From: an uncultured Acetobacteraceae bacterium
Lineage (GTDB): Bacteria > Pseudomonadota > Alphaproteobacteria > Acetobacterales > Acetobacteraceae
Reading direction: 5' to 3'
Assembly (NCBI GenBank): GCA_937902425.1
Contig: CALFNB010000226.1
Coordinates: 1-33,698, forward strand
DNA length: 33,698 nucleotides
The notes under the pieces: model-generated
Told to the model about the DNA's origin: nothing
The model's database searches: none
Seen by the model: the letters and a program-made list of their open reading frames with translations, nothing else
Shown here: in pieces, positions 7,326 to 13,172 of the stretch
How the letters are laid out: the number at the start of each line of letters is the position of its first letter
How positions within the stretch are numbered: position 1 is the stretch's first letter
Translations under genes and position numbers: made by a program

Positions 7326-7438
7326 TGGAGTGGACGAAAGCCGTTTGGCGGGCATGGCTGAAAATCGTCCGACCACGTTGAAGGGGCTTCGACGCAGCCG
7401 AGACGTTCGGGGGTTTGTGCTTGCCGGACGGCCACATT

Positions 7439-7508
7439 CATCACGAAGCTTTCTTCGAACTCGCACGGTATCTTCGTGAGCTTTGAGCGCTTCGCGTCCT
7501 TTGTGATG
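7439..7508. repeat. degenerate palindromic octamer-like repeat
   Basis: CATCACGAAG (7439-7448) versus CTTTGTGATG (7499-7508), 9/10 complementary, with internal CTTCGTGAG, CTTTGAG, CTTCGCG units. Confidence 0.4.
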
Positions 7509-7559
7509 TATGTGACCGCGGCGAGGCACGGACGACCAGGGCGGCGCACCCCGCCGCGA

Positions 7560-8369
7560 TCAGCCGCTCACACCCCAGGCGATCGCATTGCGCAGCAACG
7601 TAATGAACGCACCGGACTCCCACGCGCCGTGAAACACGGGCGGCGTCTTGTCCGCGGGGTCATTCGCACGGCCCGCGCGGGACGCGGGATTGTGGCAATG
7701 ACCGAGAGCGAGGTACGTCACGCCGCCGTTGCCGATCTGCCGCGTATACCCGAGCACGCGCGTCTTACCGTCGGGAAGCAGCGATGTGTCCGAAGCATAC
7801 ACGGTCCCGATGCTGGGTGACACCGCGCCCGGACCATAATCCGCGGTCAGCAGGATCCGCGTGGACTCCGGGTGTTGCAGTTCGATGAAGTACGGCTCGT
7901 CCTCGACTTCGAATGACGTGCCAACTCCTTTGGTAAGCGCGTGATCGGAATCACTCACGTCGACGCGAAACTTACAGAGCGGGGGGTGAGTGAGAAAATA
8001 GCTGCCGAGGACGGCGTGGTGCTCGGTCTTGACGGTGCGGCGCTGGCGCACGCCCTCAACGCGCTCGGCTTTGCCGCCGCTGGTTCCGTGTAATCCCAGC
8101 CAGTGGCCGCCGGCTTCCATCCACTGCTGGATGGCGCGGGACTGCGCGGCGTCGGGATACGGACCGGCGACATAAGTGATCAGCAGCCGGGAGATCGGCA
8201 GCCATTTCTCAATGTCCGCGAAGTCGTTGCCGACCGAGGCGGGAACGTCCTGCTCGGCCAGCAGGCCCAACAGCCGCAGGCGGGCATAATCGTGGTCGTG
8301 GCCGGCACCGGAGCCGGGCGGAAAGCCGCCGGTGATGAGATGCGCTCGGCCGGGGTTCTTGTCAGTCAT
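7560..8369 (-). CDS. ThuA-like domain protein
   Basis: LITYVAGPY...WMEAGGHWLGLHGTSGG...YFLTHPP...DSDHALTKGV...DEPYF...GRVTYLALGHC-type pattern of ThuA (type 1 glutamine amidotransferase-like) proteins. Confidence 0.78.
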   Translation of the reverse strand: MTDKNPGRAHLITGGFPPGSGAGHDHDYARLRLLGLLAEQDVPASVGNDFADIEKWLPISRLLITYVAGPYPDAAQSRAIQQWMEAGGHWLGLHGTSGGKAERVEGVRQRRTVKTEHHAVLGSYFLTHPPLCKFRVDVSDSDHALTKGVGTSFEVEDEPYFIELQHPESTRILLTADYGPGAVSPSIGTVYASDTSLLPDGKTRVLGYTRQIGNGGVTYLALGHCHNPASRAGRANDPADKTPPVFHGAWESGAFITLLRNAIAWGVSG

Positions 8370-8453
8370 TGGATCGCCTCGCTGGCTGTTCGACTTTCTT
8401 GGTGGCGAATGAGATTGACAAAATTGGCCGTCCTGTCAAATGGCGCGGTGGTA

Positions 8454-8478
8454 GATTGGTTACATATTACAACCAATC
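8454..8478. promoter_or_regulatory. perfect inverted repeat, possible operator
   Basis: GATTGGTT-acatattac-AACCAATC in the intergenic region between the divergent ThuA-like gene and the OMP gene. Confidence 0.35.
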
Positions 8479-8680
8479 GCCGGTTGCATCGGTGTCGATC
8501 CGAGTACTCAACCGAAATGACCAATTTCGCGGTACTCGGCTGACGTACCGTTTGTGCGGCACTATCCGTGGCCTGGTTGGCAGCACGCAGGAACCTATTG
8601 ACCTTTCGTGCGGTCTGTGCTGTAGGCTGATATGAGCACGACTGCAACGACAGGGGTTCAACCTTGACTTAGGGGGTCAT

Positions 8681-9514
8681 ATGCGGGACATTGTTATCTT
8701 TCTCGCCGCCGTTACTGCTTTGGGTGGAACGTGCGTGGGCGGGCCGGTCTATGCGCAGGCGCGTATCCAAGAAGAGAATCTTGTTTACACCGATCCAACG
8801 ATGGCGCTTCCAGGACGATGGACAGTAGGTGCCAATGCCGAATTGTGGGGAGGAATAACACCTTGGGTGAGAACTCAGGATTCGACACAGCAGTGGAAGG
8901 GATGGCAGGCGGGGGGCAGTCTTTCCGTTGGTTACGATGCGTTTCAGTTACAGTTGACCGGCTTGTCGGGTAGCGCCACCGGTACCTCGAGTATGTCTAA
9001 CGGAGCGACCGTACATACACACTCAGGCATCACCGAAATCGAAATATTGGGAAGGTACGTATTTCCCTCTGCACAGTTCTGGGGGATCACGCCTTATGTC
9101 TTGGGTGGCTATGATTTTGTGCAAGTGCCGCAGAGCGACGCGGTGTTCGGAAATTTCTTCTACCCCGCTACTGGTAGCTCGCAGCGCAAATTGACGAACA
9201 CCTTTAATACGCTCTTCATCGGTGTCGGCGGTCTGTACGAATTCACGCAGAACGTTGGCCTTCGGTTTGATGTGGAAATAGGGCCCAGTTTCGGCGAATC
9301 CAAATACACAAACTTCCTTCCCTCCATGAAGTCCGATTTCTCAGGGACGCAATTTGGATTCATGAGCCATCTCACCGTCTATTGGAGGATTACCGACGAT
9401 ATAGTCGCACAGGTTGGATTGAAAGCTGCCGGTATTGAGGGTGGCGCTAATGGAGTGCAAGTCTGGGGCGCGGCTGGCGCATTTGGCAGCATTGGGTATG
9501 CCCATCGCTTTTAA
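8681..9514 (+). CDS. outer-membrane beta-barrel protein
   Basis: N-terminal signal peptide (MRDIVIFLAAVTALGGTCVGGPVYAQA), alternating amphipathic strands, and a C-terminal aromatic (YAHRF) typical of OMPs. Confidence 0.72.
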   Translation: MRDIVIFLAAVTALGGTCVGGPVYAQARIQEENLVYTDPTMALPGRWTVGANAELWGGITPWVRTQDSTQQWKGWQAGGSLSVGYDAFQLQLTGLSGSATGTSSMSNGATVHTHSGITEIEILGRYVFPSAQFWGITPYVLGGYDFVQVPQSDAVFGNFFYPATGSSQRKLTNTFNTLFIGVGGLYEFTQNVGLRFDVEIGPSFGESKYTNFLPSMKSDFSGTQFGFMSHLTVYWRITDDIVAQVGLKAAGIEGGANGVQVWGAAGAFGSIGYAHRF

Positions 9515-9540
9515 GTATGCGCTCGGCGACAGGGACGACA

Positions 9541-11223
9541 ATGATTAAGCTGTTTGCTCAATTTCATCGTAGGCTGAAGCTGCGTCCGACGATCTGTTCA
9601 ACAAGGGCGCGCGAGGTCCTTTTCTCGCATGCTCGCCGCCCACTGTCGGCCGGTCGTGGGCCCGCATCATCGAATTTAGCTCTAGCTTGTCGCTGGGCCG
9701 GAGTCATTCTCCGGTATGCTGGTGTCTTGTGCGCATTCTCATTTGGCGGAGTGTCGGTTACGCGCGCCGATTCATTCGCGCTTATCGTTGGGGTCAGTCA
9801 ATACGCGGACAGTGAGATCAACCAACTCAGATTTGCCGATAATGATGCCAAGGAACTGGCTGAGTTCCTCCGACTATATTCGTACTACCCACGCGATTGC
9901 ATCACACTTCTATTGAATTCAGAGGCAACGAAACTTCGAATCTTGTCATCGTTGCAGGAACTCGAAAAGCGTTGTGGACCCAAGAACGGCGATCCAGGAG
10001 TCGCATTGGTATATTTCGCAGGACACGCTGCGGGCACAGCTGGCAGCGACCCGGATTTCCGGAAGGCGAACAGAAGTCAATCGCGGGAATTCTTGGTTCC
10101 GTATGACGCGCGTTTATCGGCCACCTACCTTCTTCCGGGTGGTGGTAGCGAGAATACAACATTCTTGAAGAAGGAGGAATTTGCTGCTCAGCTCGCCCGT
10201 TTGAAAGAGGCGAACATTGCAGTCGTTCTTGACAGCTGCCACAGCGGAATGCCCGATTTTCGAGGTCTCTTGCAGTTTTATACCGCCCAAGGACCGCAGT
10301 CCAGTGGTGGGGAAAGCAGACACATCGGACTTTTGGCGGCCAGTGGCGAATTGCAGGAATCGCTAGAATTTGCAGACTTACGGCATGGCGCTCTTTCCTT
10401 TGCAGTCCTTGAAGCGCTCCGGAAATTGCGATCACGAATGCCAGAGGGCAAACCATTTTACGTTGATTTGGAGACGCTTTACAAGACCGTTGGCACCGTG
10501 TTTGCCAGCCGGGAAGTACAGGGGCGCCGACTGTCGGACTGGCAGACTCCGGAGCGCAGCTACTTTCCCAATCAGGCCGATCTTGTAAAGGTCGCGGCCG
10601 TCACGGGAGCGTTCGAGCCCTCTACCGCGAGTGTTTCGGGTGGACCTCGGGCTTCGGGGACTGAGGCGCCGATGATTACAGCAATTACGCCACCAAGGTT
10701 CGGTGGCTCGCCATCAACTCCCGCTACTGCTCTGCTGGGAAAAGGCATACTTTACATCGCTGGTGCCATCCCGATCGGTGCTTATGTAGAGTTAGACGGA
10801 CAGATCATAGCGTGGCAGCCGGGTAAATCAATTGAAGCGACAGCAGGACGCCACATCATTGTAATTGGGGAATCCAGGTACGATTTTCGCGATGTAAGAG
10901 AAATTGAAATTAACAATGGCAGCCGCGTGACGATAACTGCGATCTTTCAGGGAACCCTTTCGATCCAGTCATTGCAAAAGGCGGATCCCAGCCTATTCGG
11001 CCCGGACCTAAGCATCATTCTCGACGGGAGTCCGCTGGGTGTTGGCAAGAATCTATCCTATACCGTCCCTGCGGGAACCCATTCACTTGCTGTAACCGTT
11101 TATGGCAGCCGAAAGACTGTTGATGTCTCAGTTAGACCACAATCACCTTTGACGGTCCGGTTTCTCACGCAGGCACTTCCGGGAGGATCGCCGTCGCGGC
11201 AAAGAGGACCTGTTCCCTACTAA
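9541..11223 (+). CDS. exported caspase-family (peptidase C14) protein with C-terminal PEGA-like region
   Basis: C14 catalytic dyad: VYFAGHA (His codon 10024-10026) and VVLDSCHSG (Cys codon 10237-10239). N-terminal hydrophobic export/TM segment (GVILRYAGVLCAFSFGGVSV). PEGA-like repeats GAYVELDGQIIAWQPGKSIEATAGRHIIVI and LSIILDGSPLGVGKNLSYTVPAGTHSLAV. An alternative upstream ATG lies at 9517. Confidence 0.85.
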   Translation: MIKLFAQFHRRLKLRPTICSTRAREVLFSHARRPLSAGRGPASSNLALACRWAGVILRYAGVLCAFSFGGVSVTRADSFALIVGVSQYADSEINQLRFADNDAKELAEFLRLYSYYPRDCITLLLNSEATKLRILSSLQELEKRCGPKNGDPGVALVYFAGHAAGTAGSDPDFRKANRSQSREFLVPYDARLSATYLLPGGGSENTTFLKKEEFAAQLARLKEANIAVVLDSCHSGMPDFRGLLQFYTAQGPQSSGGESRHIGLLAASGELQESLEFADLRHGALSFAVLEALRKLRSRMPEGKPFYVDLETLYKTVGTVFASREVQGRRLSDWQTPERSYFPNQADLVKVAAVTGAFEPSTASVSGGPRASGTEAPMITAITPPRFGGSPSTPATALLGKGILYIAGAIPIGAYVELDGQIIAWQPGKSIEATAGRHIIVIGESRYDFRDVREIEINNGSRVTITAIFQGTLSIQSLQKADPSLFGPDLSIILDGSPLGVGKNLSYTVPAGTHSLAVTVYGSRKTVDVSVRPQSPLTVRFLTQALPGGSPSRQRGPVPY

Positions 11224-11224
11224 C

Positions 11225-11254
11225 CCAACGCCGTTGTGAACTCGACGGCGTTGG
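11225..11254 (+). terminator. stem-loop immediately downstream of the caspase stop codon
   Basis: Perfect 10-bp arms CCAACGCCGT-tgtgaactcg-ACGGCGTTGG starting 1 nt after the stop; no T-tract follows. Confidence 0.5.
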
Positions 11255-11462
11255 TGCACAATCGGGACGGGGCCCGAGGTTACCCCAGACCCGAGCTGTT
11301 ATGCGGCAGCGGGGGGCCGGGACCAGTGAAGGGTATTCTACCGCCCTCTGGAGGGAGTGCGCCAACGTCCCATTACACACTTTTCGGCGTGGTCATCTAG
11401 GGTGTGGACTTCTTTCATCGTTGCATGTACATATCAGCCCAAATCAGTAGGTAGAGGCACAT

Positions 11463-12056
11463 ATGGACCCGACCACTATCTGGTGCGGCTATGGGGCCCA
11501 ATTCGGCGGAACAATTGTCATTGGGATCGATTGCCTAGTCGGTACACTTTACAACGTCGGCGATCCGACGGACAAGGTCCGGTACTGTGAGGTGCAAAGC
11601 CAAGGCGTGACCATTGGCGCTGGGCTTGGAGGCGGCGTCGGCATCATGTTTCTGCTTGCGCTCGGTTTCGCCTCGCCGCAAGAACTCAACGGCTGGGCCA
11701 GCGTCGACGTCGATTTCGCATTCGATCTCGGCATTAAGGGACTCGGTAAGTACCTCGAGAGTCTCTACGAGGTGGGCAAGGCCGGCAAAATTATGAAATA
11801 CTGGGGCAAGGGCGTCACTTTTTTAGAAGACTACTCTAAGACTAAGGACTTCACATTCAACGCGATCAAGAATCGCGATCTCGTTGTAGACCCGCACAAA
11901 CAGCAATTTATTGCTTGGCCCATTCCGACGCCGATTCCAACCAGCCTCCAGGTTTCGCTTGGTAAGCGCGCCTCCGAGGTCGACGTCACGTCTTGGGGCA
12001 CCGTCGACCTGCGCAACGAACTACGGAAGCTTTCAGGGAAGACGGTCCCCACCTGA
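11463..12056 (+). CDS. hypothetical protein, glycine-rich hydrophobic segment
   Basis: 197 aa ORF filling the lower-GC segment. Contains VTIGAGLGGGVGIMFLLALG and a coherent composition; no family recognised. Confidence 0.55.
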   Translation: MDPTTIWCGYGAQFGGTIVIGIDCLVGTLYNVGDPTDKVRYCEVQSQGVTIGAGLGGGVGIMFLLALGFASPQELNGWASVDVDFAFDLGIKGLGKYLESLYEVGKAGKIMKYWGKGVTFLEDYSKTKDFTFNAIKNRDLVVDPHKQQFIAWPIPTPIPTSLQVSLGKRASEVDVTSWGTVDLRNELRKLSGKTVPT

Positions 12057-12133
12057 TCTTTTCATCCAGGTTGCGTCGTATTTTCTTCCGCCGATTGGTA
12101 TTACTCCCGTGGCTCCGTCCGACAATGTCAGTA

Positions 12134-12553
12134 TCAGGAAATGGCCCGCAGATCGGTCACCATGCCTCCCCACGTCGTGTCGGCGACGCGATGGATCAGG
12201 CGGTGGTCCGCGCTGATCAATGTCGCTCCGCGTTGCTCACCGAGTGCCAGGTAGAAACAATCGTAGGCCGGATGATCCAGCAGCCTCGAGAGTGCCGCCG
12301 CGCGGGGGGCGAGCGAAGCAGTTGGCACCAGTTCATCCAGAATCGATGGCAGGCGTGTCACCGCGGCGAGCTGCTGCGTTTGGTGCATCATGCCACGTCG
12401 AACCATTTTCCAGGTGGCATTGCAGACTTCCGGCATGATCAGATCGGGAGCGATCAGAATATCTCCACGCGTCAGCAGTGCCTCGGCCATGCGCGATCCG
12501 TCTTCATCGACAAACCATTTCAACGCGACACTGGCGTCAATGACGAGGATCAC
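12134..12553 (-). CDS. vapC: PIN-domain toxin, VapC-like
   Basis: PIN-domain pattern MILVIDASVALKWFVDE ... DLIMPEVCNATWK ... PAYDCFYLALGEQRGATLISADHRLIHRV. Confidence 0.88.
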   Translation of the reverse strand: MILVIDASVALKWFVDEDGSRMAEALLTRGDILIAPDLIMPEVCNATWKMVRRGMMHQTQQLAAVTRLPSILDELVPTASLAPRAAALSRLLDHPAYDCFYLALGEQRGATLISADHRLIHRVADTTWGGMVTDLRAIS

Positions 12554-12783
12554 CGTTCGTCGCGTCCCTCCCTGACAAAGTCTTCAGAAAGCATTCGAGG
12601 CCCAGCGGGCGTCAAGGCACGAATTTCCGCCAGTTCCCGGACCAACGCGGTGCGGGGCTTTCGAGCAGCCTCTGTCAGCACCTGGCGGAGTTCCGCTTCC
12701 AGGGAACGGCCGTGTTCCATCGCGCGCTCCTTCAGGGATTGAAGAACGACGTCATCGACACCGCGGATAAGAATCTGTCCCAC
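12550..12783 (-). CDS. vapB: FitA/VapB-like ribbon-helix-helix antitoxin
   Basis: GQILIRGVDDVVLQSLKERAMEHGRSLEAELRQVLTEAA is FitA-like RHH. It overlaps the PIN gene by 4 nt (ATGA). GTG start proposed at 12783. Confidence 0.8.
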   Translation of the reverse strand: MGQILIRGVDDVVLQSLKERAMEHGRSLEAELRQVLTEAARKPRTALVRELAEIRALTPAGPRMLSEDFVREGRDER

Positions 12784-12795
12784 TTGAATATCCTT

Positions 12796-12821
12796 GATTG
12801 ATAGCGTGTATGCTATCAATC
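12796..12821. promoter_or_regulatory. palindromic operator candidate for the vapBC-like operon
   Basis: Perfect inverted repeat GATTGATAGC-gtgtat-GCTATCAATC, 12 bp upstream of the proposed antitoxin start. Confidence 0.6.
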
Positions 12822-13172
12822 TCGTCGACCAAGATCAAGGTGGAATTCATTCCCCGTCTTGCCGGGCGAATGGAGCTCGCCGGACCTGTGGGTCACCCTC
12901 CGCCTATCCGCGATTTCTGGCCCCCACCCGCACCAACGCTGTTCCGCGGCGCCGACAGCGCCGCGACAATCGACGGTACCACCCTGGCCGGCTGGCCCGC
13001 CTCGCGCCGCTCCGGCGTTTGTAGCAACCATCGTACCGGTCGCGGATCGAGATCGGCGCGCGCGATCGAAAGCGCCCCGTCCGCCGTTTCGATCTCCTAA
13101 CCATCCGTCGCGCGGGAAAGCCGTCCTTCGGCCACCCACATCCCCGTAGCAGCATGCCGAGTTCCGCGTCAG

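Follow-up and report, generated by a model that had tools for sequence, protein, structure and literature searches.

The interpretation that we prefer, while regarding it as evenly poised between right and wrong, is that positions 8681-11223 hold two genes that work as one accessory unit, directing a caspase-like protease to the periplasm alongside a putative partner in the outer membrane. The two open reading frames (ORFs) are tightly spaced on the same strand, have an atypical codon composition in common and are absent from a congener; the product of the second belongs to the C14 family and has an intact catalytic dyad. The window (the entire stretch of DNA analysed, 33,698 nucleotides) comprises all of contig C226; the genome that it comes from is fragmented (6.8 Mb in 667 contigs, 89% complete) and, judging by its relatives, appears to be that of a member of the Acetobacteraceae. 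The features are as follows, in window positions unless another locus is named.

8681-9514, plus strand: putative outer-membrane (barrel-like) protein, 277 aa (ORF calling, domain scans, homolog searches, structure prediction)
9541-11223 (ORF open from ATG 9517; 568 aa from 9517), plus strand: probably exported C14 caspase-like protease, catalytic domain at residues ~84-330 with H170 and C241
10729-11190, plus strand: beta-rich C-terminal portion of the caspase, with a pair of PEGA-like stretches (residues ~405-475, ~475-558), below the Pfam cut-off
11225-11254, plus strand: 12-bp hairpin, candidate transcript end with no T-run (-22.1 kcal/mol, z -5.6)
11463-12056, plus strand: 197-aa member of a rare, unnamed protein family, with one hydrophobic Gly-rich segment, probably outside the unit
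12134-12553, minus strand: toxin with a PIN domain, from a VapBC/FitAB-type pair, passenger (domain profile search)
12550-12819, minus strand: FitA-like RHH antitoxin, passenger (domain profile search)
~7330-12895, strand not applicable: accessory segment, including a ThuA-like gene at 7560-8369 (minus strand), missing at the same place in congener G653
L035:7876-8589 (genome G066), minus strand: longer (218-237 aa) stand-alone homolog of the 197-aa ORF

An accessory segment of low GC content

The initial annotation had described three same-strand ORFs in a block of lowered GC, followed by a PIN/RHH pair, and in these respects it was accurate. The ORFs (8681-9514, 9517-11223 and 11463-12056) are all on the plus strand, the PIN and FitA-type RHH genes occupy 12134-12819 on the minus strand, and GC content is 0.525-0.56 across the block vs mostly 0.62-0.71 in its surroundings. 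The third-position values (GC3) are 0.57 for the barrel-like gene, 0.53 for the caspase gene and 0.68 for the 197-aa ORF, and 0.79-0.83 for flanking genes. Elsewhere in the window, the genes scanned have roles in metabolism and transport.

It had also been proposed that the block is acquired accessory DNA, and the congener G653 bears this out. There, orthologues of the left-flanking gene (949 aa, 72% identity) and of the right-flanking gene (hydantoinase-like, 84%) are separated by ~0.8 kb that lacks the ThuA, barrel, caspase, 197-aa, PIN and RHH genes, and DNA similarity to the window picks up again at position 12895. The block at ~7330-12895 is therefore accessory DNA, present or absent between species. 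The ThuA-like gene within it has a host-like GC3 (0.785), from which we judge that the segment is probably composite. A repeat search revealed no long direct repeats at the ends of the segment, a tRNA scan no tRNA insertion site, and there was no integrase or transposase among the block genes scanned; Rfam and tRNA scans returned no matches, and scans for sigma-70 promoters and T-run terminators gave results no better than shuffles. At the empty site of G653 itself there appears to be (L129:8641-9147) a short ORF on the minus strand, in which a coiled-coil-like unit, RKFEAxD, is repeated, as recognized by eye.

The putative outer-membrane partner

The upstream gene had been called a signal-peptide barrel gene. 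The signal peptide is clear (residues ~1-25, with a hydrophobic N-terminus extending to about A25); for the barrel, no family match was obtained in Pfam, NCBIfam and other profile scans, which also gave no OmpA domain, and in a crude test strand alternation was not above that of shuffles. The protein is rich in glycine (14%) and aromatic residues (14%), its mature part lacks cysteine, and it ends ...IGYAHRF; it thus has two features of outer-membrane beta-barrels, a signal peptide and a C-terminal aromatic residue, in this case a terminal Phe. AlphaFold, given the single sequence without homologues, returned a pLDDT of 27. No homologues were found in 250 genomes of the order, in 399 of the phylum (its own genome aside) or in plasmid and viral collections. 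A barrel fold is plausible, and a reasonable guess from these sequence features.

Parallels among exported caspases

Pairing of a caspase with an envelope protein, as originally suggested for this locus, does have parallels. Exported caspases with the catalytic domain at the N-terminus and a DUF4384 domain occur across the phylum (DUF4384 was found in L042, L057, L089 and L092), and in four of the eight exported-caspase loci that were read an OmpA-family gene lies directly upstream: L042 (Azospirillum sp. TSA2s p2), L083 (Rhizobium pR132502) and, from two more alphaproteobacterial genomes, L092 (G633) and L099 (G594). The other four (L084, L085, L087 and L089) have no OmpA neighbour. The window pair resembles the OmpA-linked group in that a signal sequence appears to lead straight into a caspase domain with intact His/Cys in a protein of 500-570 aa, and in that a same-strand envelope-protein gene abuts the caspase gene upstream. 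It differs in that the partner has no OmpA domain, the C-terminus of the caspase is PEGA-like instead of DUF4384, and the caspase lacks both the acidic DGxDE motif after GHG and the EF-hand-like loop that most of the group possess; identity to the caspases of the group is only 21-26%. Since OmpA domain, DUF4384 and DGxDE motif are all missing, we treat the window pair as a variant.

The description 'undescribed' was nevertheless too strong, as a survey of 2012 had already reported OmpA in 14 metacaspase operons and 46 caspases with a single N-terminal helix (transmembrane or signal peptide) followed by the C14 domain (Asplund-Samuelsson et al., 2012; PMC3501461). The words 'barrel' and 'PEGA' do not occur in the main text of that survey (PMC3501461), in contrast to the barrel-like partner and PEGA-like end seen here. 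Exported caspases beside envelope proteins are therefore already known in bacteria, and the window pair is an unusual, apparently orphan variant, not a new kind of system.

Two of the parallel loci deserve mention in their own right. In L083:2929-11506 (Rhizobium leguminosarum WSM1325 pR132502), genes for a DUF4384-OmpA protein and an exported caspase are accompanied by those for a trypsin-like protein, itself bearing another caspase-like stretch, a serpin family protein and a serine/threonine kinase, a protease-inhibitor-kinase set that seems worth its own study. In L042:1834-9207 (Azospirillum sp. TSA2s p2), a tubulin-like gene has beside it two gene groups of the OmpA family that run divergently; both include exported caspases, three in total.

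The most serious competitor is that the segment is simply an accessory hotspot, in which barrel, caspase, 197-aa ORF and toxin-antitoxin genes are unrelated cargo and the caspase works in the periplasm without a partner. We think this unlikely, though far from negligible. It would accord with the presence of ThuA and PIN/RHH genes in the same segment, with the different short DNA at the empty site of G653, and with the failure to find a second genome with the barrel and caspase pair among those of the order and phylum, or co-occurrence in any genome searched. Also awkward for a two-gene unit are a PEGA resemblance under threshold and the four exported-caspase loci, roughly half of those read, that have no OmpA neighbour. 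Against unrelated cargo stand the 2-26 nt spacing of barrel and caspase genes on the same strand, their near-equal GC3 and the parallel OmpA-caspase pairs; the two-gene unit is likewise favoured by the hairpin downstream of the caspase gene and by the unoccupied site in G653 and, on the protein side, by the C14 match and dyad, the PDB matches of the caspase model and the aligned mature start, described below.

Start codon and probable export of the caspase

The caspase gene had been placed within 30 nt of the barrel gene; more exactly, the gap from the barrel stop is 2 nt if translation starts at ATG 9517, or 26 nt if it starts at ATG 9541, which is preceded by a Shine-Dalgarno-like AGGGA. The later start trims the N-terminal tail by eight residues only. 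A hydrophobic segment at residues ~60-81 ends ...SVTRA-DSFALIVG, and the catalytic domain follows from about residue 84. The sequence RADSFALIVG is in register with the mature starts of other exported caspases (ARADMFGLVIG in Azospirillum; LHA-DTYALVIG in genome G251), which suggests a signal peptide whose cleavage would free the catalytic domain, and supports the original proposal that the caspase is exported or membrane-anchored. The segment is marginal in hydrophobicity (Kyte-Doolittle 1.68), with an internal Arg and one transmembrane-like window at residue 63, and the tail ahead of it (50-60 aa, basic) exceeds the normal length of a signal peptide. The long basic tail and the Arg leave room for anchoring or for a wrongly assigned start, so that export is likely but cleavage uncertain.

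Anchoring would make the hydrophobic segment a transmembrane helix in the inner membrane, with the basic tail in the cytoplasm and the protease tethered facing the periplasm. The length and charge of the tail, the absence of an alternative start codon beside the segment and the window at residue 63 speak for such an arrangement, whereas the match to the region in which ordinary exported caspases are cleaved, the marginal hydrophobicity and the internal Arg speak against it; on balance we find the anchor distinctly improbable.

The catalytic domain and the C-terminal half

On its sequence, the protein is a divergent C14 protease. It matches Peptidase_C14 (PF00656) with E 1.7e-12 (48 bits vs a cut-off of 21.4), and the His/Cys dyad reported as intact is indeed so, H170 (AGHA) and C241 (DSCHSG) falling in invariant columns of an alignment of nine caspases. 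A structure model built with three Oxalobacteraceae relatives was poor overall (pLDDT 44); all the PDB matches of this low-confidence model at E < 0.001 are metacaspases or bacterial GSU0716, the top ones being fungal metacaspases and this Geobacter protein. Domain profile searches gave no DUF4384 match, and neither these nor the alignment revealed an EF-hand-like loop. In place of DGxDE there is SQSREFLVPYD.

No full-length relative was found in the genomes searched, and the viral contigs and phages searched yielded no useful relative; a contig scan gave one Oxalobacteraceae caspase locus, differing in architecture from that of the window. C14 hits are present in 41 of 249 good genomes of the order, but those read are mostly C-terminal caspase domains of proteins of 740-1000 aa. 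Such long proteins from the same bacterial family share the C14 domain (30-35% identity to the window caspase) and differ in architecture; L054, a comparable protein found in the phylum, carries WD40 repeats. In a tree of 89 caspase domains, two further caspases of the same genome fall in a different clade and the window sequence is on a long branch (1.75) with no resolved position, for which reason we claim no placement for it.

A quite different role, as effector in the type of cytosolic conflict or defence system that accompanies EACC1/EAD1 or GTPase-associated genes, was considered because the best NCBIfam match is caspase_w_EACC1 (NF047832, E 6e-13), a PADLOC caspase model matches, and the LVPYD motif is common to a Rhizobium GASH/EAD1 caspase. 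That caspase family (NF047832; Rhizobium SL42, L041) shares catalytic-domain similarity and an LVPxD motif with the window protein, but the L041 protein lacks an export signal and is clustered with EAD1 and GTPase-associated genes. The window protein scores far under the family cut-off (48.7 bits vs 140), it has a probable export signal, the segment holds no NTPase or EAD partner, and the long branch offers no affiliation; a cytosolic defence role thus seems very unlikely.

Beyond the catalytic domain, the structure model shows the final ~160 residues as beta-rich. The 'PEGA-like repeats' of the initial annotation found weak support: the two C-terminal halves are weakly similar, more so than shuffles (p about 0.006), but only one stretch resembles PEGA (PF08308), at 12.2-12.4 bits (E 0.15-0.17) vs a Pfam cut-off of 20.8. 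The C-terminal half may thus be called beta-rich and, weakly, PEGA-like, short of PEGA membership.

The 197-aa ORF

The idea that barrel, caspase and 197-aa ORF form a conserved module was not supported. Searches of order, phylum and congener genomes gave no other instance of the three genes together: no other genome had the barrel, there was no full-length caspase relative, and the 197-aa protein had a single relative in 250 genomes (28% identity, in G066), whose gene sits alone between threonine-dehydratase-like and Calx-beta/RTX-like genes (named by eye from translations), with neither caspase nor barrel. The trio therefore has no conserved neighbourhood in related genomes, which the original proposal had itself given as grounds for abandoning it. 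There were no relatives in 32 congeners, and no matches in Pfam, NCBIfam or PHROG. The glycine-rich hydrophobic stretch is real (residues 48-71), and no N-terminal signal peptide is visible.

Because a hairpin directly follows the caspase stop (none of 200 shuffles was as stable), 239 bp separate the two genes, the codon composition differs and the sole relative stands alone elsewhere, the 197-aa ORF is probably an independent neighbour, separate from the caspase unit. That the caspase releases or activates it as a membrane-active effector, as its downstream same-strand position and Gly-rich segment had suggested, is the least supported of all the readings and barely credible, given also the lack of a visible signal peptide on a protein whose supposed activator is exported.

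How the unit may work, and what it means

If the two-gene unit is real, its function, each step of which we infer, would be envelope-localised conditional proteolysis. The protease would be exported through Sec and cleaved near ...SVTRA|DSFALIVG, so that it began at the mature N-terminus; its C-terminal PEGA-like beta domains might bind an envelope ligand or partner; the partner, in the outer membrane, would hold or trigger the caspase; and the caspase would cut envelope proteins upon a surface signal (stress, a competitor or phage). By analogy, the pair may act like the OmpA and exported-caspase pairs of other Alphaproteobacteria, with the 197-aa ORF and toxin-antitoxin pair as neighbours within the accessory stretch but outside the unit. 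A more ambitious version, which we regard as a long shot, is a periplasmic caspase system coupled to the outer membrane: a dedicated barrel would sense an event at the surface (phage or contact-dependent attack) and free the caspase from its tether to cut envelope proteins, the whole spreading as accessory DNA.

Much recent work on bacterial caspases has concerned cytosolic effectors. In Alphaproteobacteria it is a recurring arrangement, present also on plasmids of Rhizobium and Azospirillum, for an exported caspase to have an outer-membrane or OmpA-family protein next to it; no functional study of such a pairing came up in literature searches. The window locus would be a minimal, two-gene version of it, and suggests that the envelope partner may be exchangeable, being in some cases an OmpA-family protein and in others a barrel-like one.
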